The position numbers and the translations under genes are program-made. The notes beneath the pieces are model-generated. The model was given only the letters and a program-made list of their open reading frames with translations. It ran no database searches and was not told the origin of the DNA. Of a DNA stretch of 38,491 nt, positions 5,366-21,917 are shown in pieces. Source of the DNA: a virus; the IMG/VR virus record IMGVR_UViG_3300023172_004031, positions 1-38,491 of that record; one strand, written 5' to 3'. The stretch's first letter is position 1. Every line of letters begins with the position of its first letter.

Positions 5366-5894
5366 TAGCAATCTCCTTTAATTTTTCTTTGAACAGTTTG
5401 CTACCTTGACTGCACATTTCTACCCAATCGTCAGCGGCACTTTCGTCTGCATTATCACTAATAAACTTATAACACAAAAAAGGTGTCTTATAATGTCTTG
5501 CCACTTTTGCTATACCATATGCTTCCATTTCAACAACATCGCAATCAACTGCAACAGCAGAAGTTACAAAACGATCGCCGGATCCACACCTGTAGCCGTC
5601 GTTGTGTTCATTAACAATGACTTCACTATTGGATTCAAATGGTGTTTCACCTGGAGCAAATCCTTGTGCTGTAGCATCCATGTCGTGTTGAACAAAACTA
5701 GTACATTTTACCAATCCAGATAAATCTTTTTTAAACGATCCAGCAGTACCATAGTTGATAATGATTTTTGGTCGATGTTTACATATCACTTCAGTGGCAA
5801 CTCTGGTTGCATTGACTTTACCAACTCCTGTGTAAAATACATTATCCATGTTTTCCAACTCTTGTGGTAGTGCTACTAATATTGCGTAATCCAA
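5352..5894 (-). CDS. Short 5'-methylthioadenosine/S-adenosylhomocysteine nucleosidase-like protein
   Basis: Several MTA/SAH nucleosidase landmarks are present: a glutamate near the N-terminus (PQELENM), GVGKVNA, INYGTAGS, VVEMEAYGIAKVA (ribose-binding Met-Glu) and FISDNAD with the catalytic Asp. At 180 aa it is shorter than the usual 230, apparently lacking an early strand-loop segment. The family cleaves adenine from methylthioadenosine, S-adenosylhomocysteine and 5'-deoxyadenosine, the last being the radical SAM by-product. The start is a TTG at 5894 with AAGGAG about seven bases upstream. An in-frame stop directly precedes it, and the ATG at 5898 is out of frame. It follows tRNA-Glu in the same transcript. 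Confidence 0.8.
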   Translation of the reverse strand: MDYAILVALPQELENMDNVFYTGVGKVNATRVATEVICKHRPKIIINYGTAGSFKKDLSGLVKCTSFVQHDMDATAQGFAPGETPFESNSEVIVNEHNDGYRCGSGDRFVTSAVAVDCDVVEMEAYGIAKVARHYKTPFLCYKFISDNADESAADDWVEMCSQGSKLFKEKLKEIANAYN

Positions 5895-5911: not shown

Positions 5912-5986
5912 TGGTATCTCCTACGGGAATCGAACCCGTGTTTACGCCGTGAAAGGGCGTTGTCCTAACCGCTAGACGAAGGAGAC
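5912..5986 (-). tRNA. tRNA-Glu (anticodon TTC), CCA encoded
   Basis: The minus strand folds as a full cloverleaf. The acceptor GTCTCCT pairs with AGGAGAT (one G-T pair at the top), the anticodon loop CTTTCAC has anticodon TTC, and a T-arm with GGTTCGATTC is present. The discriminator A is followed by an encoded CCA at 5912-5914. It is the first element after a TATAAT promoter and is followed by the nucleosidase gene. Confidence 0.95.
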
Positions 5987-6003: not shown

Positions 6004-6031
6004 ATTATACATTCTTTTTAAAATAAATCAA
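6004..6031 (-). promoter_or_regulatory. Sigma70-like promoter for tRNA-Glu and the nucleosidase-reductase operon
   Basis: On the minus strand TTGATT (6026-6031), a 16-bp spacer and a consensus TATAAT (6004-6009) precede tRNA-Glu by about 18 bases. The -35 box overlaps the TGA stop of the last radical SAM gene (6028-6030). Confidence 0.65.
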
Positions 6032-7338
6032 GAAAAATATGGCTTGTATTCTGGTACCACATCTAAAATGCTTTGTGATCTCAATTGATCTAACTGCCTA
6101 GTATATTCACAGAACCAATCCCATTTGTGAGATTTATCTTCTTTCATCATAAAATTCACTGTGTTATTGATGATTTTCATACCAGCTTGTTCAATGTGTT
6201 CCGGAAATTTTTCATTTATTAACCAGTCTTTAAAATTATCATATTGCTCTCTTACCAACTGTTTCATTTCAAAAGGCAGTGTTTGAATACAAGCAGTTGT
6301 TGGCGAATGTGCCATGTGTATTGTTAATATAGGTAATCGTTTACCTGAATTGATTTTTTTAAAATTACTTTCAGTTAATTTCCATTTCATAAACTTGGGT
6401 AAATGAAAAACATTTAAAGTTGTAACAGTACAAGCCAACCAAGCATTGACATTGTCACCTAGCTGGTCAACTGTTTGTAAATTTTTTTCAATTGCTGACC
6501 ACTTAGCAGGGTAACGCTGATATTCTACAACACTGCCAAATCCATCAACACTGGCGCCAACGTTAACTGTTTTAAAATTTTTCCACAATTCTAAAACTCT
6601 GGGTTGGAGATTTGTCATGTTGGTATTGTACTCAATGCTCATTTTTTCTGCTTGACCTAGATCAATACATTTCTGTAAAAAATCATAATGACGTTCTATC
6701 ATTAGTGGTTCTCCACCAGCCATATAAACATGTTGCATGTTTGGTATATTAGATTCTATATGATTCCAAAAGTTTTCACTAGTATGCCAATCATAGTCAT
6801 TTGTATACAATCTTCCTTTGTTGTTTTTTTGTAATTTTACATATCCGTGTGTATCATCAAAACCGTCACCACCATACACTTGTAACCAATCTTCATACCA
6901 ACTGTGACTGTCTGTTGGTCCACACATTCTGCATTTTAAATTACACAGATTACCAAATCTTAAATCATAATAAACCAAAGGCACATCAGTAGGGTCAATC
7001 GAACCATCGCTGTTTGTTACTCTGACAGCATCTTCAAATTTAAAATCCCAATGCTGTTCATACTGACGTCTACTGCGTAAACCAGATTCTTCTTCAGTAC
7101 GACATCTACCACATTCATCACTCCATCGACCTTCTAGCATGTTTTTACGAACTATGTTCATAAAGTCTGCTGTTCTGGCTTCTGTCATATCGTCTTTGCC
7201 AGCATTGTAAGAACTGCCATCTGCTTTTCGTACCACACCTCTGTTTTTAGTCACATTGGCTTGACAACAGATTCGTATGTCACCGTTGTTACGCACTGCT
7301 TGAAATATCCAGGGTATAGGACAAAATGTATTACTCAT
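6028..7338 (-). CDS. Twitch-type radical SAM protein 1 (last of the array)
   Basis: This is a clear example of the main array type. An N-terminal twitch-like cysteine module (FCPIPW with Cys6, Cys24-Cys25 and Cys76/Cys79) is followed by EEESGLRSRR, which in this type links it to the core. The radical SAM core has CNLKCRMC (Cys132, 136, 139) binding a 4Fe-4S cluster and SAM, then the GGEP SAM-binding motif at 208-211. The conserved VDGFGSVVEYQRYPAKW follows, and the C-terminus carries LDQLRSQSILDVVPEY. Such enzymes reductively cleave SAM to a 5'-deoxyadenosyl radical, and twitch modules usually hold an extra Fe-S cluster. The substrate is unknown. The start at 7338 overlaps the upstream gene by 8 bases. 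Confidence 0.88.
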   Translation of the reverse strand: MSNTFCPIPWIFQAVRNNGDIRICCQANVTKNRGVVRKADGSSYNAGKDDMTEARTADFMNIVRKNMLEGRWSDECGRCRTEEESGLRSRRQYEQHWDFKFEDAVRVTNSDGSIDPTDVPLVYYDLRFGNLCNLKCRMCGPTDSHSWYEDWLQVYGGDGFDDTHGYVKLQKNNKGRLYTNDYDWHTSENFWNHIESNIPNMQHVYMAGGEPLMIERHYDFLQKCIDLGQAEKMSIEYNTNMTNLQPRVLELWKNFKTVNVGASVDGFGSVVEYQRYPAKWSAIEKNLQTVDQLGDNVNAWLACTVTTLNVFHLPKFMKWKLTESNFKKINSGKRLPILTIHMAHSPTTACIQTLPFEMKQLVREQYDNFKDWLINEKFPEHIEQAGMKIINNTVNFMMKEDKSHKWDWFCEYTRQLDQLRSQSILDVVPEYKPYFS

Positions 7339-8536
7339 AGTATTCTGCTAACTCCGGCTGTAATTCTACAATACTAGTATTTCTAATCTTATCTAAACGA
7401 TTTATGTGTTGCTGACCTTGATGTAACAACTCAGATTTATTGTCAAACACTCGATGCACTTCACTGACTACTGGTTTGATTTGAGATTCAAACTTGTCAA
7501 AATCTACATTATCTATATTGTGTTCCACTGTTCTCATAATCTTTTGTTTGTGTGTGTCTGTCATTAATCCTATTGATAAAAACTCTGGATCCACAATAGG
7601 TAAAAAACTTACACCTCTGTATTTCTTATTGCTAGTATACTTGGAATCGTAAGCAAAATCAATCAAATCCTGTAGACCAAATATGCCTGTGATCTGTATC
7701 ACTGAATTAATTCCGCATTTCTTTAGATTTGGCAATGACAACACAGTTTCAAACACCTGCTTTTGTTCTTGCCATACTGTGCCTGTTCGCAAATATTCTT
7801 CCAGTGATCCAACTGCATCAATACTGACATTTATCACCAACGACTTAAACTGTTCCAACACACTGATAATTCTTTTTGGCATATAAGTTCCATTTGTTAG
7901 TAGATGTAGTTCTATGTTTTCTGCATAACCATCTTTTACTGCTTTGTTTAAAAATGTATAAACATTAGGATCAACCAGTGTTTCACCTCCACTCATTTTT
8001 AATGACTGTATGTTTGATAAATCTATTGTACTGGTATCCAACTGAGAATAATTTCTTCCTGTGTCATAGTATGTTCCTTGTAGTTCTGGATTGGCTACTA
8101 CTTCTTTTTGAATTGTGTTGCTCCATATACCTGTACAACTTCTGCATTTTAAATTGCAAGTGTTACCTGGACGAAAATCCAAGTCAATCGGTTTGTGTGT
8201 CTTGTTGCCGGTTTCTACATTTAGATTATATTGTTCAATATCTATATCTTTGTATCTGTCTATAAAATTGTGTCTATAACTTTCTTCGTACACACCTTGT
8301 TTTTCGTACTTGCCACAATACCATTCACACGCACTAGGCCATTTGTTGTCAACAAAGTCTTGTCTTATCTGTTTTAATTCATTACTGACCCAAAAGTTTT
8401 CCATGTTTTGTTGTACTGTGAGTGTTGAATCCATCTTTTTTATTTCTTTACTCATACAACACAGTTTGTGACCATGATTGTTTACATTAACATACTGATG
8501 TAAAAAAGGTGCAGGACAAAATATCTTATCTTTCAT
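7331..8536 (-). CDS. Twitch-type radical SAM protein 2
   Basis: The 401-aa product begins MKDKIFCPAPFLHQ. Twitch cysteines are Cys7, Cys26-Cys27 and Cys70/Cys74, with spacing CEWYC in place of CxxC. The core motif is CNLKCRSC (Cys127, 131, 134) and the SAM motif is SGGET instead of GGEP. The C-terminus carries LDKIRNTSIVELQPEL, matching protein 1. The ATG at 8536 overlaps the stop of protein 3 (TAATG); an upstream in-frame start at 8557 would lie inside that gene. The altered cysteine spacing and the GGET variant suggest a substrate distinct from protein 1. Confidence 0.87.
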   Translation of the reverse strand: MKDKIFCPAPFLHQYVNVNNHGHKLCCMSKEIKKMDSTLTVQQNMENFWVSNELKQIRQDFVDNKWPSACEWYCGKYEKQGVYEESYRHNFIDRYKDIDIEQYNLNVETGNKTHKPIDLDFRPGNTCNLKCRSCTGIWSNTIQKEVVANPELQGTYYDTGRNYSQLDTSTIDLSNIQSLKMSGGETLVDPNVYTFLNKAVKDGYAENIELHLLTNGTYMPKRIISVLEQFKSLVINVSIDAVGSLEEYLRTGTVWQEQKQVFETVLSLPNLKKCGINSVIQITGIFGLQDLIDFAYDSKYTSNKKYRGVSFLPIVDPEFLSIGLMTDTHKQKIMRTVEHNIDNVDFDKFESQIKPVVSEVHRVFDNKSELLHQGQQHINRLDKIRNTSIVELQPELAEYYE

Positions 8537-9612
8537 TACTCTAATCCTTGTCCACACTTTTCAGCACATCTACGAATTCTTGGGTTTGTAGTATCTGTTG
8601 TTTTGTTGTTAAAACTGTCATGCAAATCATTCCAATACGGATGATCAAATATGTCTTGTAAAGATTTGTTATTGATGTTATTCCACTCTGTACCATGTTT
8701 ATCAACATAGTATTGATAATCTCGCATAGCAAATCCTGTGCCACTACCATACTTGCCACTCAAATGACAACACTGCCATACTCTGCCATCATATTCAATC
8801 TGCACTCGCTGTCTTTTTAACCATGGACATTCTATTACACATTCATTAGTAAAGTCTTTGAACTTTTTGATGTTGGTTTCAATCTTTTTAACATAGTCTT
8901 GATCTTTTTCAGGTATAGTTGATATCTGTGTCTGCTTGTGCTTTTTATTTGCATTACCTGAAATAAATTGTTCTTCACCAGTGACTTTTCTAATTGCTTT
9001 TTCTCTCCATCTAGTCTTTTTGACAAAGAAATCAACAAACCCCATCTGCTGTGCCAACTGTCTAGCATCTTCTACTTGATGTGCATTATGATCAAATTCC
9101 AAGTACTTCCACACAGCACGACCTCCACCTTTGATAAAGGCAGTGGCATTTTCAATGATACGATCATAGACCACATTTCTTCTGTACTTGTCATGTGTTT
9201 CATTGTCAATACCATCTATACCAAACAACACCTGTTCTTCGTTTCTAAAATTTTGCGATGTTACTTGACCCATTTCATACCAATAATCTGGATCATGATA
9301 ACCACCATTTGTATTAATTTCTATACGTGATCCTGGAAACTCTTTGGCTAGATACTTTACAAATTCTAAACTGTCAGGATGTATCATGCTGTCGCCAAAG
9401 TTGCCATCAAAATGTGTTTTATCAAAATTTGGCAGTGTTTGTTTGTTAAACACACTTTTAAAAGTTTCAAACTTCATATTACCAGCAGGACCAAAAGTTA
9501 AATGTGGATTTAACTTAACTCCGTCAAGATTTCTACCACAGTCAAGACACATGGCATTACAATTACTTGTAATCTCAATCATAATTTCTTTTAAGTCTGA
9601 TGTTTTTAGCAT
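8536..9612 (-). CDS. Radical SAM protein 3, GNxGD type with C-terminal cysteine module
   Basis: This 358-aa protein belongs to the second architecture in the array. The radical SAM motif is at the N-terminus (CNAMCLDC, Cys18, 22, 25). GGEP is replaced by DGNFGDSMIHPDSL, followed by FGIDGIDNETHDKYRR. The C-terminal half carries a SPASM- or twitch-like set: CPWLKRQRVQIEYDGRVWQCC and, at the end, RRCAEKCG. The family pattern is that of peptide- or nucleotide-modifying radical SAM enzymes with auxiliary clusters; the substrate is unknown. Its ATG overlaps the stop of protein 4 (TAATG). Confidence 0.86.
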   Translation of the reverse strand: MLKTSDLKEIMIEITSNCNAMCLDCGRNLDGVKLNPHLTFGPAGNMKFETFKSVFNKQTLPNFDKTHFDGNFGDSMIHPDSLEFVKYLAKEFPGSRIEINTNGGYHDPDYWYEMGQVTSQNFRNEEQVLFGIDGIDNETHDKYRRNVVYDRIIENATAFIKGGGRAVWKYLEFDHNAHQVEDARQLAQQMGFVDFFVKKTRWREKAIRKVTGEEQFISGNANKKHKQTQISTIPEKDQDYVKKIETNIKKFKDFTNECVIECPWLKRQRVQIEYDGRVWQCCHLSGKYGSGTGFAMRDYQYYVDKHGTEWNNINNKSLQDIFDHPYWNDLHDSFNNKTTDTTNPRIRRCAEKCGQGLE

Positions 9613-10631
9613 TACAAATTATACTCCTGTATAACACTTTCTGGTAACCATTTTGCAGAAGGCATTAATGGATCGTTTGGACCATCCCATCGGTGGCTTT
9701 TCATTATTAAAAAATCTATTCCTATCTGTTTTGCAAACTGTTTGGCTTGTTCTATTTGATGTTCGTTGTGTTTAAAAACTATGTACATCCATTGATTTTT
9801 TTTAAATCCGTATTCTACTCCAAGTTGCATTGCTTCAACTACACTGTCAAAATCTATGTTGACTCTGTAAATGTGTGCTGTGTCTTTTAAGCCGTCGACT
9901 CCAAACACAATTCTATCATATTCGGGATCCATCACACTGTATAATTCTTTCCACCATGCTTTGCTTTTTCTTGAACCGTTGGTATGAAATTTAACTTCTA
10001 TTTCTTTGCTTTTTAATAGTTTGATAATTTCTAAAAACTCAGGATGATATATACAATCACCAAAAGATCCAGTAAAATCAAAAAAGTTAAAATGATGTTC
10101 TTCTGTCATGGTTTTTATTGTTTCCAATGTTACATCAAGTTTTGTCATTGTCTTGTATGCTGGTTCTCCATCAATAATTGTAGTTACTCTAGCACAACGT
10201 GGACATAAAAGACTACATCGATGTGTAACATCTAATTGTATGTTAGTTGGTACTACATAAGTGTTATGATATTCAACTTCTCTAGTTTGATTGTATATAG
10301 AATCACTGTTGTTTAGATACTTTTCTTTTCTTGTGTCATAATCAGATGATTCACGTGACCCACATATTTCATAACACTTTTCAGGAACATTTTTGTTTTC
10401 TAATAAGTTTTTAAAAAACTGCTGATACTCTGTTTTATCAAATATTGTTGATAAAGATTTTGTATGATTAATATTAGTGTTTTGATCTATCAACCATGGA
10501 AGTTCTTTTTCAATCTTGTTGTGTCTATGTAAAAAACAACAAGGTCTTACATATCCATCATGTGTGATATATACTCCTTTTGGTTGTTGTTTTGCTAGAC
10601 ATTTAGGATATACATGTCTATTTTTTATCAT
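9612..10631 (-). CDS. Radical SAM protein 4, hybrid architecture
   Basis: At 339 aa this is the shortest member. It combines an N-terminal cysteine module (Cys11, Cys31-Cys32, Cys86, Cys90) like the twitch type with a core of the second type: CSLLCPRC (Cys139, 143, 146) and TGSFGDCIYHPEFL in place of GGEP. It lacks a C-terminal cysteine cluster and stops soon after the core (AKWLPESVIQEYNL). FGVDGLKDTAHIYR and FKHNEHQIEQAKQFA match proteins 3, 5 and 11. It may be a swapped or truncated form of the second type. The start overlaps the end of protein 5 by 14 bases. Confidence 0.84.
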   Translation of the reverse strand: MIKNRHVYPKCLAKQQPKGVYITHDGYVRPCCFLHRHNKIEKELPWLIDQNTNINHTKSLSTIFDKTEYQQFFKNLLENKNVPEKCYEICGSRESSDYDTRKEKYLNNSDSIYNQTREVEYHNTYVVPTNIQLDVTHRCSLLCPRCARVTTIIDGEPAYKTMTKLDVTLETIKTMTEEHHFNFFDFTGSFGDCIYHPEFLEIIKLLKSKEIEVKFHTNGSRKSKAWWKELYSVMDPEYDRIVFGVDGLKDTAHIYRVNIDFDSVVEAMQLGVEYGFKKNQWMYIVFKHNEHQIEQAKQFAKQIGIDFLIMKSHRWDGPNDPLMPSAKWLPESVIQEYNL

Positions 10632-12243
10632 CTCTTTTCATTTCGTCAGTTTGGCTGACAACAAACTTGCCTGGTTCTACTTCTTTGTAGTATTTGTACT
10701 TTCTAATATCATCTTCGTCAACTACTTTTGAATCGTAGTTTTCATGCACAGAATCTTTTTCGACACCTGCAACATCTTCAATTTTTATATGTTTGCTAGG
10801 ATCAACTTCCATTGCTGATCCAGGTCCCCAACCAGAACCTCCTTGTGGTGGTGTTAATCCATGAATCTTGTTTACATCACTGTATTCACCAGTCACAAGA
10901 TTTTGTTCGTTTCTACGCATTTTTTCAAATATGCCAGTGCCTAATTCTGTGTGACACATCTGCTTACACTTTGCAGGTTGTAAATCACCATTTGGATCAT
11001 CTTCTCTTGACCAATCTTCTTCCAGTAAATGATCATACCAAGGACTCTCTAAAATAGTTTTAACCGGATTAGGATCATTTGGGTCTTGAGCATACAAACT
11101 ATTAAAGTCCATAGGCACATTGTGATGCACCATGCTAGGAATTGGCCAGTGATTTTTACGACTGTCTTCATAGTATTCAATACCACCTAACCAGTTACAA
11201 GGCCAAACTTTGCCATCAAAGCTCACATAAATTCTTGGTTCTGTTCTGTTTTGACAAATAATTTTGTGTTTTTTCATGTAAGGATCTTTTTCAGGATTTC
11301 CTCTATCTAGTCTTTGCTGTGTGAGTTTTTCTCTGTCTGGATGTCGCATAGCCGGATTGTGACTCACAGTGATAGGCGATTCTTCTAGGCCGCCTACTTT
11401 TTCTCGTCTACTGTGACTGCCTTGTAATATTGTGTCATTCTGTATCAGTCTACCCAATGACGTATCAATTTTTCCGGCTTTTTCTGATTCAATTAATCGC
11501 TGTCTATCTCTTTCGTCTTTTTCTTTAAGCATTTGCCATTCAGCATTTTCGGCCAATGTTTCAGCATGTTTTTTGCTCATTCTCACCGGTAAAAATCTAA
11601 AACTCAACTTTTCAATAAATTCGCTAAATCCCATTTTTTTAGCAAACTCTTTGGCTTCTTGTAGTTGGTGTTCGTTGTGATTCATCACAATAAACTGCCA
11701 TCTAGCTCTACCGCCAGCATTAATAAATGCTTCAACGTTTGCCATCAATCTATCCCACTTGGCGCCAATACGATACAAGTGATTTGTATCTTCTAAACCA
11801 TCAATACTGAATGTGACTCTACCACCATGATAGTTTTGTATATTGCCACGTGAGCCTCCGGGACCATTGATAATTCTTGCGGCTTCGGCCCAAAACTCCG
11901 GATCTCTTGAACTACCATTAGAACCAATAGACACATTTTTTGTGCCGTTGTCTCTAAACCATCTTAGAATGTCTAAACAGTCTGGATGTGCGGCAGGTTC
12001 ACCATAGTTACCACAACTCAAAAACCAATGCAACTGTTTGCAAAATTCCGGTGGGAAAAATCTTTTAATGTCTTCAAGTTGTATAATTCTTTTGCCGGCT
12101 TTTTCAATTTTTTCATTAAACGTTCTACCACAGCCGCCACAATACAAAAAGCAAGTGTTGTTAAACTCTAATTCTAATCTGTCAACTCTTTCATATTGAA
12201 AAACTGTTCTACCAAAATCGTCTTTCCACAATGGCTGTGTCAT
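10618..12243 (-). CDS. Radical SAM protein 5, GNxGD type with long C-terminal tail
   Basis: The 541-aa product has CFLYCGGC (Cys31, 35, 38), CGNYGEPAAHPDCL in the SAM-binding position and FSIDGLEDTNHLYRIGAKW. A C-terminal cysteine module follows (RIYVSFDGKVWPCNWLGG, later CKQMC). A charged insertion (about residues 220-320, with KEKDERDRQRL) and a polar tail of roughly 90 residues after the last cysteines, ending QTDEMKRDDKK, are not shared with its relatives. The tail may bind a partner. The start overlaps the stop of protein 6 (TAATG). Confidence 0.86.
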   Translation of the reverse strand: MTQPLWKDDFGRTVFQYERVDRLELEFNNTCFLYCGGCGRTFNEKIEKAGKRIIQLEDIKRFFPPEFCKQLHWFLSCGNYGEPAAHPDCLDILRWFRDNGTKNVSIGSNGSSRDPEFWAEAARIINGPGGSRGNIQNYHGGRVTFSIDGLEDTNHLYRIGAKWDRLMANVEAFINAGGRARWQFIVMNHNEHQLQEAKEFAKKMGFSEFIEKLSFRFLPVRMSKKHAETLAENAEWQMLKEKDERDRQRLIESEKAGKIDTSLGRLIQNDTILQGSHSRREKVGGLEESPITVSHNPAMRHPDREKLTQQRLDRGNPEKDPYMKKHKIICQNRTEPRIYVSFDGKVWPCNWLGGIEYYEDSRKNHWPIPSMVHHNVPMDFNSLYAQDPNDPNPVKTILESPWYDHLLEEDWSREDDPNGDLQPAKCKQMCHTELGTGIFEKMRRNEQNLVTGEYSDVNKIHGLTPPQGGSGWGPGSAMEVDPSKHIKIEDVAGVEKDSVHENYDSKVVDEDDIRKYKYYKEVEPGKFVVSQTDEMKRDDKK

Positions 12244-13739
12244 TATAATCCTTCTTTCTTTATATACGTACTTATCTCTGGATACAAATCATCAAAATTT
12301 TGGTTTCTGTATCTATCTTGTGTTCTGGTCATTTTAACAAACTCTGGAAAAAGATCACTAAGATCTTCACTCCACATGAACTTCAACATTGAATCCATTT
12401 TTCTTTTGAATTGTATATACAATTCATTTTTGTTGTTGTCCCATGGTTGTGCATGATTCCAATCTGCTTGACTAAATTTATAAGACTGATTTTTCATTGC
12501 AAAGTTGTCAGGCAAACTGTTGATCCATGGTCTAAAAAAACTGCTGTCAAACTCTTCAAATTTTGTCTGCACATGTTCTTTTAATTCTCTTGGCAATGCT
12601 TTCACATTATAATAATTTGGAGAATGTAAAAAATGCATACTGAAAAACACACTCTGTCCACATCTATTAAACTTAGTCCAGTTGTTTTCAATCTGCCATT
12701 TTACCAAATCAAAAACCTGTGTGGCATTCAGTATCTGCCAAGTAAAAGTATTAAACATGTTAATATTAGGTCCTGTGTTTTTGTCTAGCCATGCAATATT
12801 TTCATTGATTTTTGACCACTTGCTTGGATATCTAATGTAATCGTTGTATTTGCCAACTCCATCTATACTACAACCTAATTGTACACTTTTAAAGTTGTGC
12901 CAGAGATCAATAGCACGTCTGGGTATATTGGTTAGATTTATGTTGTATTCTAATTCCATGTTTTTGGCTTGACCTGACTCGATAAACTTCTGTAACATGT
13001 CGTACATGTTTTCTACCAGCGTAGGTTCTCCGCCACTGAAATAAATCTTTTTCAAATGTTTGCAGTCACGATCAACATTGTCAAAAAAGTTTGACTGCTC
13101 ATACCATGTGTATATGTCATCTTGCAATTTAACTTTACCATTTTCTTTTTTCATTTCAACCGCAGTAAAATCAGTTTTGAAACCTTTGAACATTGTGTCA
13201 AACCATTCATCGTACCACTGTGTGCTTTCACTTGGATGACACATACGACATTTTAAATTACATAAATTCCCCAGTCTGATATCATATTCATAAACCGGTG
13301 CTTTGTCAATAACTAACGTTCCGTCAGGCATTGTGGTACTTTGTGATTTCCAATAATCGTAACCATATTTTTCATAGTACTCTCTAACAGCATTTCTTCT
13401 ACGTGAATTCATACCTGCATCATCTTCATTGTTGCATCTAACACACATGCTATGACGTTCACCAGACATCATGGATTTACGAACCTGTTTTAACAACGGT
13501 GCATTCCTTACTTGATCAAAACTGTGTGTTTCTGCTCTCATAGTATTTCCAGATTCGTCTGTGAGAATGCCTTTGGTTTTTTTACAGGTTCTTGCTTGAA
13601 TACAACTTCTGAATTCTCCAGAATTATGCACAGCCATTTGAGCAAACGGCAACGGGCACCAAGATGGATTTGTTTTGCTTATATGATCTTGATACAAATC
13701 AACTGGCTTATAAAGATATGTGTCTTTTATGTCAGGCAT
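12243..13739 (-). CDS. Twitch-type radical SAM protein 6
   Basis: The 498-aa protein has an N-terminal extension before WCPLPFAQMAVHNSGEF. The usual paired cysteines are degenerate: SCIQARTC gives Cys46 and Cys52. Cys99 and Cys102 (CVRC) remain, then AGMNSRRR. The core is CNLKCRMC (Cys160, 164, 167), SGGEP follows, and IDGVGKYNDYIRYPSKW matches the array signature. The C-terminus has QDRYRNQNFDDLYPE. The changed auxiliary-cluster ligands suggest altered cluster coordination. It overlaps protein 7 by 8 bases. Confidence 0.87.
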   Translation of the reverse strand: MPDIKDTYLYKPVDLYQDHISKTNPSWCPLPFAQMAVHNSGEFRSCIQARTCKKTKGILTDESGNTMRAETHSFDQVRNAPLLKQVRKSMMSGERHSMCVRCNNEDDAGMNSRRRNAVREYYEKYGYDYWKSQSTTMPDGTLVIDKAPVYEYDIRLGNLCNLKCRMCHPSESTQWYDEWFDTMFKGFKTDFTAVEMKKENGKVKLQDDIYTWYEQSNFFDNVDRDCKHLKKIYFSGGEPTLVENMYDMLQKFIESGQAKNMELEYNINLTNIPRRAIDLWHNFKSVQLGCSIDGVGKYNDYIRYPSKWSKINENIAWLDKNTGPNINMFNTFTWQILNATQVFDLVKWQIENNWTKFNRCGQSVFFSMHFLHSPNYYNVKALPRELKEHVQTKFEEFDSSFFRPWINSLPDNFAMKNQSYKFSQADWNHAQPWDNNKNELYIQFKRKMDSMLKFMWSEDLSDLFPEFVKMTRTQDRYRNQNFDDLYPEISTYIKKEGL

Positions 13740-15030
13740 ACTCTAATAATACACTCTTCCAATCTGTTTGTCTAATATTATCCATTTTATCCAAATATTC
13801 AATGGTACGTGGCCATATATGGCTGTTGTCTTGACTGTTCATAAAATTAACAAGAGCATCTAACTTTTTGTATTTCTGCACAACATCTTTACCTTCTGTA
13901 TCTGTTTGCTGTATCCAAAGTTTTAAATTGTTGATTTTTTCTTCAACCTGTGTTTTGAGATGTTTTGGTAACACTGTGACATTTAGTATATCTGGACTGT
14001 GTAAAAAATGCATTCCTATTAGACCTTGGTTTGTTGGGTATCTGTTGATTTTTTTGTACCGTTGAGAAACCTTCCATTTGATTAATTCATCAATGTGCAT
14101 CACATTTAAAATGCTCACAGTGGTGTCAACTGTGAGTTTGACGTTGCTGGGAGAATTATCCCAATATTTCAATTTAACCAACATATCACTCCAAGTACTT
14201 GGATATCTGATCAAGTCATGATAAGCACCTATACCGTCTATAGAAAGGTGGATTAAAGCTGTTTTAAAGCGGCTGTACAAGGTTTTAAGTTCATCTGACA
14301 CTGTTAGAGCGTTAGTATTAAAACGAAGGTTTATACGGTCGCTATAGCCGGATTCGACACACATATCAAGAAAAGATTTAAACTCAGAATTGATTGTGGG
14401 CTCGCCGCCAATGATATAAAAATTTTCTATACTGTTCAATTTGGCTTCTATGTCTTTCCAAAATACACTGTCTGCTTTGTACCAGTTTAGTTTGCCTTCA
14501 CCTTTTCTCCAATAGAGAGCATTTTTAGTTTCTTGATTTAAATCTGTTTCCATAAGTTTGTTGTAATCTGGAATCCACTTTGAACTATCACCCGGGTTAC
14601 ACATCAAACAAGCCAAATCACATTTGTTGCGACGTTTCATATCAACATATTTGATATCAAATGGTGCTGTGCCATCTGGTTCTACTCTTGCAAGTACTTC
14701 TTCAAATGATAATTTTTCTTCCCATTCTTCATTTTCCCATTGTCGTTTAGATCTATAGCCTGCGGCTTCTTCTTGAAAACAAGCTCTGCATTCAACAGGT
14801 GCTTGACCTTGCATAAATTTTTTACGAATTGATTTGTAATATTCTGTATTCCAGTAATCAGATGGTCTGTCTTGATCAACATACACAAATTCTCCTGTGT
14901 CTTTTCTGTTGTGTCCTATGCTTCTATAATCTTCTGCACTGCCGCTGTTGGCATGACAACACAACTGCATGGCACCATTTGTTCTTGTGCTAAGATGTAT
15001 AAAAGGTAATATACAAAATTTATTCTTCAT
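13732..15030 (-). CDS. Twitch-type radical SAM protein 7
   Basis: The 432-aa protein begins MKNKFCILPFIHLSTRTNG, followed by Cys24-Cys25, CRAC (Cys81, 84) and EEAAGYRSKRQW. The core motif is CDLACLMC (Cys137, 141, 144), with Asp-Leu-Ala in place of Asn-Leu-Lys, a feature partly shared with protein 10. GGEP and IDGIGAYHDLIRYPSTW are intact, and the region LIGMHFLHSPDILNV resembles HFLHSP in protein 6. The pair may act on related substrates. The C-terminal signature is weaker (LDKMDNIRQTDW). The start lies 11 bases inside the end of protein 8. Confidence 0.87.
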   Translation of the reverse strand: MKNKFCILPFIHLSTRTNGAMQLCCHANSGSAEDYRSIGHNRKDTGEFVYVDQDRPSDYWNTEYYKSIRKKFMQGQAPVECRACFQEEAAGYRSKRQWENEEWEEKLSFEEVLARVEPDGTAPFDIKYVDMKRRNKCDLACLMCNPGDSSKWIPDYNKLMETDLNQETKNALYWRKGEGKLNWYKADSVFWKDIEAKLNSIENFYIIGGEPTINSEFKSFLDMCVESGYSDRINLRFNTNALTVSDELKTLYSRFKTALIHLSIDGIGAYHDLIRYPSTWSDMLVKLKYWDNSPSNVKLTVDTTVSILNVMHIDELIKWKVSQRYKKINRYPTNQGLIGMHFLHSPDILNVTVLPKHLKTQVEEKINNLKLWIQQTDTEGKDVVQKYKKLDALVNFMNSQDNSHIWPRTIEYLDKMDNIRQTDWKSVLLEYA

Positions 15031-17131
15031 ATTCTAACAATTCTTTAAAAACTGGGTGAAGTTTTGTGACGTCTGTTTTTTTGTACTTGTCCATAGCTAT
15101 AGTTTTACGTTTAAACTGCTCAAGTTCTTTGTAACTAAATGAAATGTAATCTATATGTTTTATAAACAAATTTAAAAAATGTTTCTTCTGTTTAGCAAGA
15201 GGATCATTGTCTTTTATTTCAGAAATCATTCTTTGATATAACTCTCTTAATTGCTGTTTATACTTGTCAGGCAGAATACCAAATGTAAATCCTTGTGGAG
15301 AATTAATTAATAAAATACAAATTTCAGAAGTAAATTCATTGTGTTTTTTATCTTTGTTATAAAGATAATGTAATTCAAGAAGTTCATATAACCATTCGTC
15401 AACAGTAAATGCATTGAGAGGTTGGAAGACTAGATTTACTCCCATATCATATCTAAAATTACTTCCATAACAATTAATAAAATCTTGAATATTTTTTTTA
15501 ATTTGATACCATTTAGCCGGACGCCGAATATATTCGTAAGTACTACCGGCGCCGTCAAGACTTGCGTTAATATGAACTTTTTTAAATTTATCTATCATTG
15601 CATATGTACTGTTTAAATTAGTAAAATTTGTTGTCATACTTAATTTGATATTCTGTGCATAATCTTTTTCTACACAGTAGTTAAAAACATCATGTACTTT
15701 TTTATTAATAGTTGGTTCTCCACCAAGTATTTTAATTTTTACTGTATGCTCATTGATTAATTGAGCATTGAAAAAATCTAAATTTTCATCAGTATTAATA
15801 TTTCTTTTACCAAAAATTTCAGGTAACTCATTATACATTTTTTCAATCAATGAACTATTTGTTGGACTACACATGGTACACATCAAGTTACATAAATTGT
15901 CCGGTCTATAGTCAACATATTGAGGAAACCCTAGCTTATTACCATTTTGTAAATTTACTCCAGTTAACGGAACAGCGTCAAACCCTCTCCTATCACTATC
16001 AACGTTGGCAACTTCTTCTTGCCACTTACACTCAGAACATTCCAAAGGCCATTTACCATCAATAAATTTTTTTCTAAAATCTTGTGATGATTGAGAAGTC
16101 CACCAATCGTTAATTGTTTCGCTTTTGTCTAAAGTATGTCTACCAGTCTGAGCACAACAAAATGCTACAGTATTTGGCTTTTCTCTGTAGTATATACTTG
16201 TAAATGGTGCTCTACAAAAAACAGGATTCAAACCTGTAGTTTGTCTTACTTGTTTAACTGCTTCGCGAATACCCACTTTGCTATAAATTTGATCAATTAG
16301 ATAATGGTTATAATCCACATGGTCTTTGTTTAACATTGCTATCATCATACAATTGGTTTGTTTTAGATCATTTACAACACAAACATGATGATATATTTTT
16401 TCGTATTTGTCTGGTATAAAATCTGGGCTAAACTTTTCCATTTGCCAAATACCAACTTGAGCGGCTCCTAATGGTAAATGATTGTATTTGTTTTGTTGTC
16501 TGATAGGTAAATCATCATCGTAGTTACTGTAACGAATACCTGATCGAATATTTCCCAATCCTATGCCTTTGGTTAAACTAAAACAAACTTCTGTAATTGC
16601 CGGATGATTTACATCTAAAAAGATATCTCTACAAGTGCCAAACCAAGCACAGTCGAGCAGTATAGGTACATTGTTTTTTAAACAATCATCTTGCAATTGA
16701 TCAAAATGAGGAGGCATTGTACCATTACCGCAGAAAGGATAACTTGTAATTACCCAATCGTTTTCCTCAACCGGAATGTAATTTCCATTTTCATCATCTA
16801 AAAATTCAAAGTTTTTTACCACACGTTTATGATAAGCATATTCGCCTCGAAATAATCTTAGCCTTTTTGTTGAGTATCTATAATATGCTTCATCAAACGC
16901 CTGCGTGGTACCATTGATCATGTCTCTGTGTTTAAATCTTTCTAATCCTTTTACAGAGTTTCTTTTAGTGCTATAAATCCAAGCATGAATCTTTTCCAAA
17001 TACTCATCACGCACTTCAAAATAACCCGGCGTACTCAGCCATTCATTCCATGGTGCTTCAGCAAGATGAGTTTGAAACTCAGGATCATATATGGCGTTAT
17101 GCCTTGTTTGAAATAAATCTTTATCAAGCAT
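15020..17131 (-). CDS. Aminotransferase-like domain fused to a twitch-type radical SAM enzyme, 703 aa
   Basis: Residues about 1-295 look like a shortened PLP-dependent fold type I aminotransferase: INGTTQAFDEAY, then SYPFCGNGTMPP, LLDCAWFGT with Asp160 in the position that contacts the pyridine nitrogen, and FSLTKGIGLGNIRSG with Lys188 as the candidate Schiff-base lysine. Residues about 305-703 are a complete array-type enzyme: FCRAPF (Cys306), Cys325-Cys326, CSEC (Cys365, 368), CNLMCTMC (Cys414, 418, 421), LGGEP (469-473) and LDGAGSTYEYIRRPAKW. One reading frame covers both with no stop. The fusion predicts transamination and radical chemistry on one substrate or pathway. Substrates are unknown, and the aminotransferase half may be non-catalytic. 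Confidence 0.82.
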   Translation of the reverse strand: MLDKDLFQTRHNAIYDPEFQTHLAEAPWNEWLSTPGYFEVRDEYLEKIHAWIYSTKRNSVKGLERFKHRDMINGTTQAFDEAYYRYSTKRLRLFRGEYAYHKRVVKNFEFLDDENGNYIPVEENDWVITSYPFCGNGTMPPHFDQLQDDCLKNNVPILLDCAWFGTCRDIFLDVNHPAITEVCFSLTKGIGLGNIRSGIRYSNYDDDLPIRQQNKYNHLPLGAAQVGIWQMEKFSPDFIPDKYEKIYHHVCVVNDLKQTNCMMIAMLNKDHVDYNHYLIDQIYSKVGIREAVKQVRQTTGLNPVFCRAPFTSIYYREKPNTVAFCCAQTGRHTLDKSETINDWWTSQSSQDFRKKFIDGKWPLECSECKWQEEVANVDSDRRGFDAVPLTGVNLQNGNKLGFPQYVDYRPDNLCNLMCTMCSPTNSSLIEKMYNELPEIFGKRNINTDENLDFFNAQLINEHTVKIKILGGEPTINKKVHDVFNYCVEKDYAQNIKLSMTTNFTNLNSTYAMIDKFKKVHINASLDGAGSTYEYIRRPAKWYQIKKNIQDFINCYGSNFRYDMGVNLVFQPLNAFTVDEWLYELLELHYLYNKDKKHNEFTSEICILLINSPQGFTFGILPDKYKQQLRELYQRMISEIKDNDPLAKQKKHFLNLFIKHIDYISFSYKELEQFKRKTIAMDKYKKTDVTKLHPVFKELLEYEE

Positions 17132-18353
17132 GTTTTTTAAACAATCCTTCCAACCATTCTGCTGTCATTGGCTCTAAATAATCTGCGTAATGCTGTGATC
17201 TTATTTGATCAACTGACTGAATTGATTTCACTATATCAATTTCTTTTTCTTTGTCAATTACAACTGGATTATTAATCAAATTCTTTATTCTTTTGATCAA
17301 TACACTGTTTTCAGAGACTTTAATTAAATTATCATATGCATATTGTAGTATATGTGTTGGTACATTTTCTAATGATAAAAACGAATCATCAGGTTTTACA
17401 AAGGTATTCATAAACGGTGGCCATGTGTTTTTTGTTGTTTCTATAAAACTCTTTGACCATTTTTGTAATGCTGGTAAATTTTCAACATTAATAGCCAAAG
17501 GTACCACTGACATACCAAATGAAATGCTATTGTTTTTGCTGTAGTCTTTTAAATTTTGTATTCTTTCTTGAAATTTATCCCAATTAAAAGGATATCTTAT
17601 GTAATTATATGTGCTGTTGTATCCATCACAACTAATATTCAAATGCACCGATGCAAAACTATCTAATTTAGATAAAAATTCACTGGTAAATTTAGTAGCA
17701 TTAGTAGTAATTGACAAATTGATATTTTGAGAGTAATTCTTATTATTACATTCATCAAGTATATCAATAAACTTTTTTGATATTGTTGGTTCTCCACCGG
17801 TTACTTTTAACTGTTTAATTTGCGGAAGAAGACTTAAAATCTCATTGTACTCGTTTTCAGACACTTGCTGTATTGAATTTTGATCCATATTTTTTTCAGC
17901 AGTTGGACTTCTTAACCAATGCTTAGGCATGTAACTATTACTGTTCTCTAGTTGTTGCATATCATTACCAATCAAATGAGAACTGATATAAGAACACATT
18001 CTACATTTTAAATTGCATTCATTACTTAATTTTAAGTCAAGATATTTAATTTTAGGATTTTTTATATCAACAATATTACTAAATTTTTCAATATATCGTT
18101 GCCTAATACTCGAACCTGATACTTTTTCGTCTTTCCAACAAACATCACACAATTTATTTTGTACACCGGACAGCAGATCTGATCTTAACTGAGTCATAAT
18201 TTCACTGTCAAACCATTCCTGATACGACATATCACGTGTGGTATTTTCCCAAGATCCTGACAAAGAATTACAGCAAGGTTTAAACTTGCCTGATACTGCG
18301 GCATGCGAATGTATAAACGGTAAAGGGCAAAATGTTTTAGATTGTTCCGCCAT
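17124..18353 (-). CDS. Twitch-type radical SAM protein 9
   Basis: The 409-aa protein starts MAEQSKTFCPLPFIHSH at 18353, where AAGGA lies about eight bases upstream. In-frame starts back to 18410 would add residues unrelated to the family. It has Cys27-Cys28, CDVC (Cys69, 72), VSGSSIRQR, CNLKCRMC (Cys113, 117, 120), TGGEP and CDGYNSTYNYIRYPFNW. The C-terminal signature is VDQIRSQHYADYL. It is the more compact, AT-rich and Asn/Ser-rich kind, closest in feel to protein 8's radical half. It overlaps the end of protein 10 by 17 bases. Confidence 0.87.
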   Translation of the reverse strand: MAEQSKTFCPLPFIHSHAAVSGKFKPCCNSLSGSWENTTRDMSYQEWFDSEIMTQLRSDLLSGVQNKLCDVCWKDEKVSGSSIRQRYIEKFSNIVDIKNPKIKYLDLKLSNECNLKCRMCSYISSHLIGNDMQQLENSNSYMPKHWLRSPTAEKNMDQNSIQQVSENEYNEILSLLPQIKQLKVTGGEPTISKKFIDILDECNNKNYSQNINLSITTNATKFTSEFLSKLDSFASVHLNISCDGYNSTYNYIRYPFNWDKFQERIQNLKDYSKNNSISFGMSVVPLAINVENLPALQKWSKSFIETTKNTWPPFMNTFVKPDDSFLSLENVPTHILQYAYDNLIKVSENSVLIKRIKNLINNPVVIDKEKEIDIVKSIQSVDQIRSQHYADYLEPMTAEWLEGLFKKHA

Positions 18354-19821
18354 CTTCAAGTTCCTTTTCTTGTTGTTTCGAAACTGCTTCGCCAACCTGA
18401 ATTGGAACACTATTATCTAATGTTTCATCCATTAACCCTGCCATTTCAGGAAATGTTTTGCAGAAATCTGTACCACGATGTTGATCTAACTTAGTAAGAT
18501 ATTCTCTAAACTCAGGCATACGCACAGACCAATCTTCACTCATCATAAATTTGATCATGCCTTGTAATCTTTTAACGCCATAACTGGCCTGCATAAATTG
18601 TTCTTTTGTGACACCGTGCTGTTTGACACCAGTAAACCTATCCCAATTTTGCTCTAACCAAGGGTAAAATTCTTCATACTTTTGTTTTGTTTTATTTTTA
18701 AACCATTGTGGTAATGATTTGACATTTAATTGACCAGGCCAATACACAAAATGATAGTTGATCATGCCGGCACCAAAAGGCCAAACATTAATCTTTTTAA
18801 AATTTTGTTCAGTTTTCCATTTGATAAAATCAGGAATATAATGAATATTAAGTGCCTGCACAGCACATGCTACAGTAACTTCAACTTTGTCTTCTGTGTT
18901 GTCTAACAAATGAAACTGTTTAACTGTATGATCCCATTTTGATGGATAACGAATATAGTCGTTCATCTCACCAATTGAATCTACACTGTAATGAAATCTT
19001 ACTCTTTTAAAATGACTCCATAGATCAAACAAACGTTGTGGCATTTCTACAGCATTAGAGTTATAACGCAATTCAATCTTGGGTGCATATCCACGTTTAA
19101 CTACTTCTTCTAGCAGTGTATAGTGTTCTTCAATAATTGTTGATTCACCACCTGCAAAATACAATTGATACATGTGAGGAATTTGTTCGTACAACTGTTC
19201 CCAAAACACAGGATTATTCTTATGCCAGTTATATCCAGCACCGTGTACTTTACCTTTGTTATCCCATCCCATTGTTTGCTTTAACGATTCATTTTCAATT
19301 GTTGGGTAAACTGCATTCCAATCTTTAACCCATAAAGATGAATCATGAGGTGAACACATCACACAAGCAAGATTACATTTTGATCCCATACGTAAATCTA
19401 AATATCTTATTTTAGGTGGAATTGATCCATCTTCTGCTGTTTCACCAATAATATCTTCAATTGAATATCTGTTTAACCAATAATCAGTTTCCCACATTCT
19501 TTTTGAATTGTGTCCAGCTTCTTCTTCTTTGTAACATTTTAAACAACTAGGTGGTTTTTCTCCATTGAGCATCTGCTTACGAACATTTTTCATGTAGTCG
19601 TTGTTCCACGAACTCATCAGATCTGAATTGTTTAGGTTAGCCGGTACACCATCTTCTCTTTTTAGTACACCTACTTGTCCGCCATGTTCTTTATCGTTGG
19701 TTGGTCCAACACTACTTGCGTTTGCAGTGCAACACACTCTCATGTTGCCATCTGGTCTTGTTGAAAGATGCATCCACGGTAATGCACAAAAAGTTTTTGA
19801 TGGTAGTTTTTTATTATTCAT
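18337..19821 (-). CDS. Twitch-type radical SAM protein 10
   Basis: The 494-aa protein begins MNNKKLPSKTFCALPWMHLS, with Cys30-Cys31, CLKC (Cys93, 96), EEEAGHNSKRMW and CNLACVMC (Cys149, 153, 156). The SAM motif is AGGES in place of GGEP, and VDSIGEMNDYIRYPSKW follows. The C-terminal signature LDQHRGTDFCKTFPE is followed by an extra tail of about 30 residues rich in Glu and Gln. The FDLW and HFVYWP regions resemble proteins 6 and 7. The ATG at 19821 follows protein 11 by 14 bases with only a weak SD. Confidence 0.87.
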   Translation of the reverse strand: MNNKKLPSKTFCALPWMHLSTRPDGNMRVCCTANASSVGPTNDKEHGGQVGVLKREDGVPANLNNSDLMSSWNNDYMKNVRKQMLNGEKPPSCLKCYKEEEAGHNSKRMWETDYWLNRYSIEDIIGETAEDGSIPPKIRYLDLRMGSKCNLACVMCSPHDSSLWVKDWNAVYPTIENESLKQTMGWDNKGKVHGAGYNWHKNNPVFWEQLYEQIPHMYQLYFAGGESTIIEEHYTLLEEVVKRGYAPKIELRYNSNAVEMPQRLFDLWSHFKRVRFHYSVDSIGEMNDYIRYPSKWDHTVKQFHLLDNTEDKVEVTVACAVQALNIHYIPDFIKWKTEQNFKKINVWPFGAGMINYHFVYWPGQLNVKSLPQWFKNKTKQKYEEFYPWLEQNWDRFTGVKQHGVTKEQFMQASYGVKRLQGMIKFMMSEDWSVRMPEFREYLTKLDQHRGTDFCKTFPEMAGLMDETLDNSVPIQVGEAVSKQQEKELEDGGTI

Positions 19822-19835
19822 TTACTATACTTACC

Positions 19836-20912
19836 TTACTTAAATTGCGATGCAAAAGGATCAAATTCTACTCCACACTTCATTGAGCATACTTTTAATT
19901 TTCCATTATTACAACCAGAAATGTTCCAGCTGTTAGCAATATCATCAAATATACCAGTTTCAAACACTTGTTGTAGACCTTGTTTTGCATCAAGCATTTC
20001 TTTTCCGCCAACAGCATCAATATAATTCCATATCTGTTCTACTTTGGGATCTTTATGCCACCACTTGTACATTCTACCGGCTGTCCAACAACATGGTAGT
20101 GCTAGACCTTCTGCTGTGATAAACAGACTTTTTTCTTTGGCAACTTTGCAATTGATTGGCACTACATCATAATAAGCATCCATAGACCCATATTTTTCTA
20201 CCAATTGATCGTATTTTGATAGTTCTTTGTTTTGATATTTTTGATCTGGCTTTTTTAATTCTGTAGTTTTTTCACCTTTACGATTGACTGCTTGATGATA
20301 GTCTTTCTTTTCCGACGATGCAGTAATAAATCTGCCAGTTTTTTTAGAAGTAAAACTTTCAAAACCTATTTGTTCGCTTAATGCTTTTGCTTGTTCAACT
20401 TGATGCTGATTGTGTTCAAATATCAAATAATCCCAACGGGCTCTTCCGCCGGCTGAAACAAAACTATTCATTGCTGACTCTACTTTTGACCATTGTACAT
20501 TTTGTCTATACAAATGATTTGTTTCTTCTAATCCATCAACACTAAAAATCACATAACCGTTTGCACCAAATGTTTTTGCCAATTGACTCCACCACTGGTT
20601 ATCTCTTGCACCTGCGTTGGTATTCATACTCAACATCATATCTGGATTGTGATATCTAAAATACTCAAAAACCTCTAGTGTATCATCTGCCACAATTGGA
20701 TCGCCTAAATTACCACACATGTACATCTTTTTTAGTTGTTTAATAAACTCTGGTACAAATATCTTTTTACAATCATCTAATGTCAATTCATCAAGATTAA
20801 TATGAGGATTTAAGGCTCCGCCGTTCTGATTTCTATCGCACATAGGACAAGCCGCTTGACATTTTTGCGTGATTTCTAAATGAATTGTTCTGATATCTTT
20901 ATAATTGTACAT
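19836..20912 (-). CDS. Radical SAM protein 11, GNxGD type
   Basis: This is the first radical SAM gene to be transcribed. The 358-aa protein has CQAACPMC (Cys18, 22, 25), MCGNLGDPIVADDTL in place of GGEP, FSVDGLEETNHLYRQNVQW and FEHNQHQVEQAKAL. Auxiliary-cluster cysteines lie in INCKVAKEKSLFITAEG followed by LPCCW, with CNNGKLKVCSMKCG at the end. It is close in length and motif order to protein 3. The ATG follows the methyltransferase-like gene by nine bases. Confidence 0.86.
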   Translation of the reverse strand: MYNYKDIRTIHLEITQKCQAACPMCDRNQNGGALNPHINLDELTLDDCKKIFVPEFIKQLKKMYMCGNLGDPIVADDTLEVFEYFRYHNPDMMLSMNTNAGARDNQWWSQLAKTFGANGYVIFSVDGLEETNHLYRQNVQWSKVESAMNSFVSAGGRARWDYLIFEHNQHQVEQAKALSEQIGFESFTSKKTGRFITASSEKKDYHQAVNRKGEKTTELKKPDQKYQNKELSKYDQLVEKYGSMDAYYDVVPINCKVAKEKSLFITAEGLALPCCWTAGRMYKWWHKDPKVEQIWNYIDAVGGKEMLDAKQGLQQVFETGIFDDIANSWNISGCNNGKLKVCSMKCGVEFDPFASQFK

Positions 20913-20921
20913 CTTTTATTT

Positions 20922-21917
20922 TTATTTAATCCCAATCAACATGTATCTTGTGTATTTTTCTAAGTCTAAATTTCCAGCATAAAGATAAGTTGTCATAGGA
21001 GCAATTGTTTTAAAATGATCTACATTGTCAACACAATTGATATGTTCTGGTAATTCTTTATAATCATTTGACTGTAGAATACACAATTTGCCTTTTGGAA
21101 TACCTGCCCACCACTTATCCCAATTTTCTATATGTTCACAACTTGTGTTAATAATAGTGTTTGGTTCATCAAAAAGTTCTCTTTCTGTACCATTTGATCT
21201 CAAAGTTATATATTTGTGTCCGGCAAAGTTAATATTATGAATATCTTGTGTACTTGCTTTGAACCTCCAGTCTGTCATTACCCATGGCTTATTCATTGAC
21301 TCAGCAATACGCCAGCAACTCTCGTCAATATCAAAACTTCTTATTTTATCTAAATGTATTTTTTCTGATTCAAATAACATAGTTGCTAATGTGCCATACC
21401 ATCCTGCACACAGAAATACAGTTCCTAAGTTCATACTAATTTTTTCAATTTCTGTTACCAACCACTTTTTACTGAGCAACTGACCTCTAGCAAAAGCATC
21501 TTTGATTGTGCTTTCAGGAAATGTTCTTAAAGTTTTTACTAGTGTATCTAGTGTTTCACTTTTAACAAACAATGATAAAGTTTTTCTTAATACTTCAATG
21601 TCATCACCTTTGTTGATAACTGTGTTACGTATCAAATCAATACTTTCACTGTTATCAAGTTCTTGTACTACTCTAAATATTGAATGTATGTTTTTTTCTA
21701 AAACTGCTTTACGCAATTCGTTAAACATCTTTCTTGATTTAGTGTTTGTACCAATTAAACGAAACACACTAGATAAATCTTGATCTATAACTGCACGTCT
21801 TAGATCTTTTAATTCATCTACACTATCATATAAAAGCTCAAATCTATCTAGTAACTCGTGTGTTTCTAAATTAGATTTGGACTCTGTTGAATTGTTGTTT
21901 GAGCCATTCAAAGTCAT
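20922..21917 (-). CDS. SAM-dependent methyltransferase-like protein with helical N-terminus
   Basis: Residues about 1-140 are helical with repeated units of the kind AVIDQDLSSVFRLIG and AVLEKNIHSIFRVVQ. Residues about 145-331 look like a class I methyltransferase: VFLCAGWYG (168-174) in the position of the glycine-rich SAM loop, an acidic FDIDES segment (195-200) and NTSCEHIENWDKWW (257-270), which may include catalytic residues. The glycine-rich loop is atypical, so this is a fold-level call. It overlaps the glycosyltransferase-like gene by 47 bases, with GGAGGAG 13 bases before the ATG. Its place ahead of the array suggests a role in the same pathway. Confidence 0.65.
   Translation of the reverse strand: MTLNGSNNNSTESKSNLETHELLDRFELLYDSVDELKDLRRAVIDQDLSSVFRLIGTNTKSRKMFNELRKAVLEKNIHSIFRVVQELDNSESIDLIRNTVINKGDDIEVLRKTLSLFVKSETLDTLVKTLRTFPESTIKDAFARGQLLSKKWLVTEIEKISMNLGTVFLCAGWYGTLATMLFESEKIHLDKIRSFDIDESCWRIAESMNKPWVMTDWRFKASTQDIHNINFAGHKYITLRSNGTERELFDEPNTIINTSCEHIENWDKWWAGIPKGKLCILQSNDYKELPEHINCVDNVDHFKTIAPMTTYLYAGNLDLEKYTRYMLIGIK

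Follow-up and report, generated by a model that had tools for sequence, protein, structure and literature searches.

An ordered array of eleven radical SAM genes and its four-gene core in a fragment of an uncultured virus

Few cellular reactions are as demanding as some of those run by radical S-adenosylmethionine (SAM) enzymes; the question here is what a virus would do with eleven of them encoded in a row. The question is raised by IMG/VR virus record IMGVR_UViG_3300023172_004031, from an uncultured virus of bacteria, of which positions 1-38,491 form the whole stretch analysed (the window, 38,491 nucleotides). It holds 13 radical SAM (rSAM) open reading frames (ORFs), 11 of which form an uninterrupted, head-to-tail run on the minus strand from 20912 to 6028. 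The analysis shows which genes are present and in what order, how well they are conserved, their motifs, two fold predictions and the neighbouring genes, and from these we infer catalysis, substrate, product and site of action. The array may encode a modular route to an unusual sugar or aminocyclitol-like unit destined for a surface glycan, a reading whose chances we judge to be even.

An uninterrupted array of rSAM genes

The sequence-only reading of this DNA had listed eleven consecutive rSAM genes (6028-20912) and two more nearby (29174-30367 and 31903-33270), with a CxxxCxxC motif in every gene and, for almost all genes, joins by overlap or by gaps of at most 14 bases, and the counts agree in full. 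A PF04055 search of the six-frame translation of the window gave exactly 13 matches, none with internal stops (10 over the cut-off), which cover all 13 ORFs; each protein has one CxxxCxxC motif (13/13), together with additional cysteines compatible with an auxiliary Fe-S domain. The array genes are designated K to A from 20912 down to 6028, and the separate genes L and M. The closely spaced block extends to two upstream genes, 20922-21917 (methyltransferase-like, MT-like) and 21871-23355 (glycosyltransferase-like, GT-like), and the junctions from the GT-like gene (23355) to A (6028) are -47, +9, +14, -74, -8, -11, -8, -1, -14, -1, -22, and -8 bases, the largest gap being 14.

Paralogues of the same subfamily are about 21-35% identical in the longer BLAST alignments, and because of this low identity the array paralogues appear to be old, distinct enzymes. 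Recent tandem duplication or amplification was ruled out by the low paralogue identity together with a 242-kb contig, IMGVR_UViG_3300020477_001008 (G001; 242,646 bases), which holds orthologues of all eleven genes. An assembly artefact, the other possibility raised from the sequence, was not borne out: a second IMG/VR contig (29 kb) is identical to the window in those array genes that were compared (F, H, E, and J), and the separate, diverged G001 keeps the orthologues in nearly the same order.

Judged by their sequences, the 13 proteins are members of the rSAM superfamily and are predicted to cleave SAM reductively, yielding 5'-deoxyadenosine. They divide into two subfamilies. Nine (A, B, F, G, H, I, J, L, and M) exceed the 170-bit cut-off of NF033640 (N-terminal-twitch, or N-twitch, rSAM proteins), keep the SAM-binding motif GGE, and have extra cysteines for another cluster. 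The other four (C, D, E, and K) fall outside NF033640 (D 53, E 48, and K 46 bits; C not listed), and possess SPASM-like cysteines and variants of the SAM-binding motif (GNxGD/E in C, E, and K; GSFGD in D). TIGR04317, the tungsten-cofactor rSAM maturase, was tried and rejected for C (58 bits), D (58 bits), and K (43 bits) against an equivalog cut-off of 380. Sequence searches of J and C against solved structures gave chance-level matches only.

Downstream of K and J, the array consists of I (17124-18410; N-twitch, NF033640 264 bits), H (15020-17131; 703 aa, 237.6 bits), G (13732-15030; N-twitch, 356.6 bits), F (12243-13739; N-twitch, 330.3 bits), E (10618-12243; C-terminal Cys cluster and long tail, PF04055 E 0.001, PHROG 21308 E 3e-14, 69% in G001), D (9612-10631; N-terminal SPASM, PF04055 7e-12, SPASM 1e-5), C (8536-9612; C-terminal SPASM, PF04055 1.5e-6, SPASM 2e-5), B (7331-8557; N-twitch, 260.9 bits), and A (6028-7338; N-twitch, 383.3 bits). 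The true start of I probably lies about 20 codons downstream of the ORF start, since the NF033640 match begins at residue 24. The separate genes, also on the minus strand, encode an N-twitch protein (L, 29174-30367; 183.1 bits) and an N-twitch protein with a SPASM match (M, 31903-33270; 309 bits, PF13186 2e-8); the ORF of L (29174-30424) runs at its upstream end into tRNA-Ala (30386-30461), so that the gene has to begin near 30367. Beside L and M are genes for a RimK-like ligase, S-adenosylmethionine decarboxylase, and NAD synthase (30472-31359, 31530-31901, and 33277-34047).

A conserved core in phages and in Bdellovibrionota

In G001, the orthologues are 26% (B) to 80% (J) identical to the window genes and are arranged as GT, MT, K, J, I, H, AT, G, F, F', E, D, C, A, B. 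Relative to the window, A and B have changed places, F has a second copy (F'), and the pyridoxal phosphate (PLP) domain that belongs to H in the window is a separate gene (AT); several flanking genes also match. G001 contains 23 rSAM genes in total. More of them are found at 25000-50000 and 86000-100000 of this contig (L015-L017), along with T4-type terminase, SufBD-core, adenylylsulfate (APS)-kinase-like, fatty-acid-desaturase, and other metabolic genes.

With the J alignment as query in IMG/VR, 343 relatives were obtained (80 of the 343 loci listed), and the core was counted in 60 viral loci with sufficient upstream sequence. Upstream of J, K is present in 60/60, the MT-like gene in 57/60, and the GT-like gene in 55/60 of these loci, and the complete four-gene core (GT-like, MT-like, K, and J) in 53/60. 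The accessory rSAM content differs strongly among phages: the set ends with K and J at some loci and at others extends into long arrays that include further rSAM classes, and the 33 viral loci longer than 19 kb carry 2-11 rSAM genes within 9-10 kb of J. Because the core is near-constant across loci while the surrounding rSAM set varies, the eleven-gene array reads as one lineage's version of a conserved core with a variable periphery. Viral scans with E and AT relied on a small number of short patterns and turned up few loci, which does not imply absence elsewhere.

The core genes are, in order, the GT-like gene (21871-23355, minus strand), whose product has three repeats and a C-terminal domain predicted to be GT-A-like; the class-I MT-like gene (20922-21917, minus strand), with a 24.6% match to an annotated methyltransferase of Pelagibacter phage Mosig and no match in Pfam; K (19836-20912), with C-terminal SPASM-like cysteines (PF04055 E 1.6e-4; CQAACPMC); and J (18337-19821), an N-twitch protein (NF033640 434.7 bits) and the most conserved gene of all. 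The Cys residues of K are invariant in 22 orthologues, and the J orthologues (n=22) are at least 64% identical to J of the window.

The array genes are under purifying selection. Orthologue pairs gave ratios of nonsynonymous to synonymous substitution rates (dN/dS) of 0.05-0.39 with dS mostly saturated, and the one unsaturated pair (I vs L024) gave 0.09. The array might instead be a bank of diverged paralogues, redundant or decayed, kept by gene flux without a common pathway, as the strong variation of accessory rSAM content between phages and the two copies of F in G001 would allow; however, orthologues nearly keep their order, their motifs are intact, and dN/dS is low, so that we credit this explanation with a slim chance.

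Sister contigs hold 2-23 rSAM genes each, and because a Gp23 major capsid gene is encoded in seven of the eight long ones, the carriers are taken to be large T4-like phages; the window itself, a 38-kb fragment, contains no capsid genes. No close relatives were found in named phages at the DNA level, only weak protein matches.

Outside viruses, J was detected in Bdellovibrionota genomes at 58-67% identity (in one case on a 936-kb contig), usually with K, and relatives of A, D, AT, MT, and GT occur at several of these loci in rearranged form. The bacterial clusters thus resemble the window array in J, K and other relatives, but differ in gene order and strand. The six J-bearing genomes (G017-G022) have 12-37 NF033640 matches each, of which 8 to about 20 are over the cut-off and many are clustered; no control genome reached the cut-off. 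In one of the six (G018:C1:745-775 kb), 13 over-cut-off N-twitch rSAM genes lie within 30 kb. The trait is patchy within Bdellovibrionota, since strong NF033640 matches were found in only 10 of 39 genomes drawn evenly across the phylum.

Family-2 glycosyltransferases (GT2) account for 13 of 90 selected neighbours at 12 Bdellovibrionota loci; from the genome background (92 GT2 genes in about 20.7 Mb of the six J-bearing genomes) about one would be expected, so that GT2 genes are roughly tenfold enriched near the rSAM clusters, the figure being approximate. A quick tree of J placed most Bdellovibrionota sequences outside the group that holds all viral rows, with deep forks poorly resolved; the viral group also includes a few viral-looking contigs from metagenome-assembled genomes and one long-branch Bdellovibrionales row. 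Gene exchange between Bdellovibrionota and the array phages, in either direction, is likely. That large T4-like phages of Bdellovibrionota, or of hosts exchanging genes with them, carry an rSAM pathway for surface sugars that is of host type, and rebuild glycans of the host or the virion with it, is a distinctly doubtful extension.

What the array may make

Two predicted folds bear on the product. The C-terminal domain of the GT-like protein was modelled by AlphaFold2 at a predicted local distance difference test (pLDDT) score of 90, and its top Foldseek matches are nearly all glycosyltransferases, at template-modelling (TM) scores of 0.3-0.5 (best E 7e-5), which makes it a predicted GT-A-like domain with a consistent but weak match. 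The protein has no Pfam glycosyltransferase match, and sequence searches of the GT-like and MT-like proteins against solved structures gave nothing useful. Residues 1-300 of H (pLDDT 91; Foldseek probability 1.00, E 1e-11 to PLP enzymes) form, according to the model, a PLP fold-type-I, aminotransferase-like domain, whose catalytic Lys is present in every alignment row covering the site; aminotransferase activity is predicted, and decarboxylases and others share this fold. The domain is joined to an N-twitch rSAM part (residues 301-703), and its fusion with an rSAM enzyme in one 703-aa protein argues for a linked function.

A multistep pathway had been suggested from the sequence alone, and the suggestion gains support from the old, distinct paralogues, the near-constant order across phages, purifying selection, and neighbouring tailoring enzymes. 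In the proposed mechanism, each rSAM enzyme would cleave SAM and remove a hydrogen atom at an unactivated C-H position of one small substrate shared by all, so that successive steps might oxidise, deoxygenate, epimerise or rearrange one position each. The PLP-fold domain may then aminate the resulting ketone, accessory transferases in related phages may add amidino, carbamoyl, methyl or other groups, and the GT-A-like protein would pass the finished unit, an unusual sugar or aminocyclitol-like compound, on to a surface glycan of the virion or the host.

Sister arrays were found to encode carbamoyltransferase, UDP-glucose/GDP-mannose dehydrogenase, cytidylyltransferase-like, and B12-rSAM proteins, as well as cupin and Asp/Arg hydroxylase proteins. 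The hydroxylase neighbours are also consistent with an rSAM bank that modifies a protein or peptide (e.g., a tail or capsid protein) in the manner of maturases of ribosomally synthesised and post-translationally modified peptides, each enzyme acting on other residues. The second-best profile matches of several array enzymes are indeed peptide maturases (PapB, HxsB, and ACGX), all far below cut-off, and SPASM/twitch rSAM enzymes in general frequently act on peptides. Nevertheless, with no gap above 14 bases, a precursor peptide gene would not fit anywhere within the array, neither a protease nor an export gene was recognised there, and the sister arrays contain sugar-type enzymes; a peptide substrate is therefore considered unlikely.

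An amidinotransferase gene follows J in four loci, and its best solved relative is the inosamine-phosphate amidinotransferase of the streptomycin pathway (E 3e-28), with the His-Cys motif kept. Such an enzyme would also suit a diffusible small molecule (e.g., arginine- or aminocyclitol-derived) directed against the host or competing phages: the sister arrays encode an amidinotransferase of the StrB/SxtG/HsvA group and a carbamoyltransferase, and among the Foldseek neighbours of the PLP domain are MppP, GntC, and OrfR, which tailor arginine in antibiotic pathways. The PLP fold matches are general, however, neither an exporter nor a resistance gene was recognised among the array genes, and a core that is nearly universal and includes a GT-A-like gene is more in keeping with a polymer or surface acceptor, which leaves a diffusible product rather improbable.

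For a surface glycan, several points weigh on the other side. The GT fold match is weak, and the fold also includes nucleotidyltransferases; the likeness of the PLP domain of H is to amino-acid aminotransferases and decarboxylases rather than to sugar aminotransferases; and the amidinotransferase has HsvA, SxtG, and AGAT as further close relatives, so that it could act on a polyamine or an amino acid instead. The peptide-directed habit of SPASM/twitch enzymes counts here too, and we know of no NF033640 member with an assigned reaction or known substrate. Of six Bdellovibrionota genomes checked, only three have GT2 genes flanking J, the window array adjoins ClpP and Fe-S genes rather than tail genes, and the support genes described below are missing from most sister contigs.

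On either side of the array, the minus strand carries possible support genes: a ferredoxin--NADP reductase-like gene (4604-5371; NF008178 5e-34, below cut-off; 70% in G001 beside the array), a methylthioadenosine/S-adenosylhomocysteine (MTA/SAH)-type nucleosidase gene (5352-5894; PF01048 3.8e-20; NCBIfam nucleosidase 1.5e-26, below the equivalog cut-off), and genes for a SUF-associated/PaaD-type Fe-S assembly protein (23994-24299; PF01883 9e-16, TIGR02945 2e-32), an Nfu/NifU-type Fe-S scaffold (24296-24856; PF01106 8.5e-29, PF08712 4e-27), and an FTR1-family iron permease (24858-25487; PF03239 6.7e-31). In the glycan pathway, iron uptake, Fe-S assembly, electron supply and the nucleosidase would keep the oxygen-sensitive rSAM enzymes working, with the reductase-like protein supplying electrons and the nucleosidase removing 5'-deoxyadenosine. 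A nucleosidase homologue lies downstream of the array in one sister contig (G010). As constant array partners three of these genes were rejected: the nucleosidase is present in 1/9 sister contigs, and the Fe-S assembly protein and the reductase in 4/11 each, the same four.

The window also has a QueD-like gene (37961-38413), and QueC-like PP-loop neighbours occur in Bdellovibrionota, so that modification of phage DNA or tRNA bases (e.g., 7-deazaguanine or other hypermodification) was weighed as well; Campylobacter phages carrying rSAM clusters have modified DNA. Against this, a TGT/DpdA-type transglycosylase was found in 0/6 long sister contigs (the window itself being a fragment), one QueE would suffice for a 7-deazaguanine pathway, and the array enzymes match NF033640, not QueE. 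We attach hardly any weight to base modification.

Other genes were noted around the array. ClpP-, ClpS-, and ClpX-like proteins, named from sequence reading, are encoded at 23365-23967, 25550-25852, and 34972-36231, and form with an IF-3-like gene (34418-34972) a protein-turnover and translation take-over set. A MotA/TolQ/ExbB proton-channel gene (PF01618) and its partner gene (26369-27617) are both near the array in G001 as well (60-63%). Four tRNA genes (Glu, Ala, Asp, and Val) are placed at 5912-5986, 30386-30461, and 31376-31530 among the rSAM and metabolic genes, and a search of the window for structured RNA in the array gave none besides tRNAs. One candidate sigma-70-like promoter match (12/12) was seen at 23986-23959 on the minus strand, but it ends 7 bases before an ATG, and the overall count of promoter-like sites (97 vs 85 in a shuffle) is near shuffle level.

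Known multi-rSAM phages and what the array adds

According to a previous study, Campylobacter phages CP220 and CPt10 possess 11-12 rSAM genes, including a five-gene module plus an amidinotransferase described as interchangeable (2010; PMC2853527); 11 were counted here in the genome. These phages resemble the array carriers in being T4-like and in having five rSAM genes grouped with genes for a predicted amidinotransferase and for two proteins of nucleotide-sugar-transferase fold, but their similarity to the window is only distant (23-26%), their five rSAM genes are interrupted by others, compared with eleven in the window, and no match to J, the MT-like or the GT-like gene was found in them by these searches. 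The marine T4-like genome TARA_ERS488813_N000010 was reported with 12 rSAM genes and Fe-S assembly genes including paaD (2017; PMC5332604), and may be a relative; in that report the rSAM genes were treated as Fe-S genes. In pelagimyophages, rSAM cassettes were located in a variable host-recognition cluster (2020; PMC7029224). One of them, Pelagibacter phage Mosig (EXVC030M), carries, between its tail-fibre and VrlC genes, MoaA-like genes alongside genes for an ArnB-like aminotransferase, a carbamoyltransferase, and a methyltransferase, but it has few rSAM genes, no J, and no long array. Mosig and CP220 have an enzyme mix similar to that of the sister arrays, on a smaller scale and near tail or baseplate genes. 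Vibrio phages K566 and K567 (255 kb) contain three clustered rSAM genes, distant J relatives (OZ196521 161548-165950), and are a possible cultured model.

The array does recur in viral and bacterial genomes, the search for which had been proposed at the outset: as a whole in G001, by its core in the viral loci, and through J in Bdellovibrionota. The idea that it might be undescribed holds in part. Phages with multiple rSAM genes were already published in 2010, 2017, and 2020; what is new is the ordered array and its size, the shared four-gene core, and the Bdellovibrionota link, for none of which (core, conserved order, bacterial clusters) a description was found in the literature searched, the bacterial clusters being judged from titles and abstracts.

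The array joins scattered reports on Campylobacter phages, pelagimyophages and the TARA genome into one question, and the ordered set of eleven with its four-gene core offers a defined route to the substrate of the N-twitch subfamily. Should the T4-like carriers indeed use a host-type pathway to rebuild glycans, about a dozen radical enzymes would be building an (amino)sugar decoration of the natural-product kind, and to our knowledge such a cascade would be longer than any radical-enzyme cascade known in a virus. With a surface glycan as product, a large viral enzyme bank would be connected to host recognition or superinfection control, and the Bdellovibrionota homologues point to bacteria in which gene removal and measurement of its effect may be possible.

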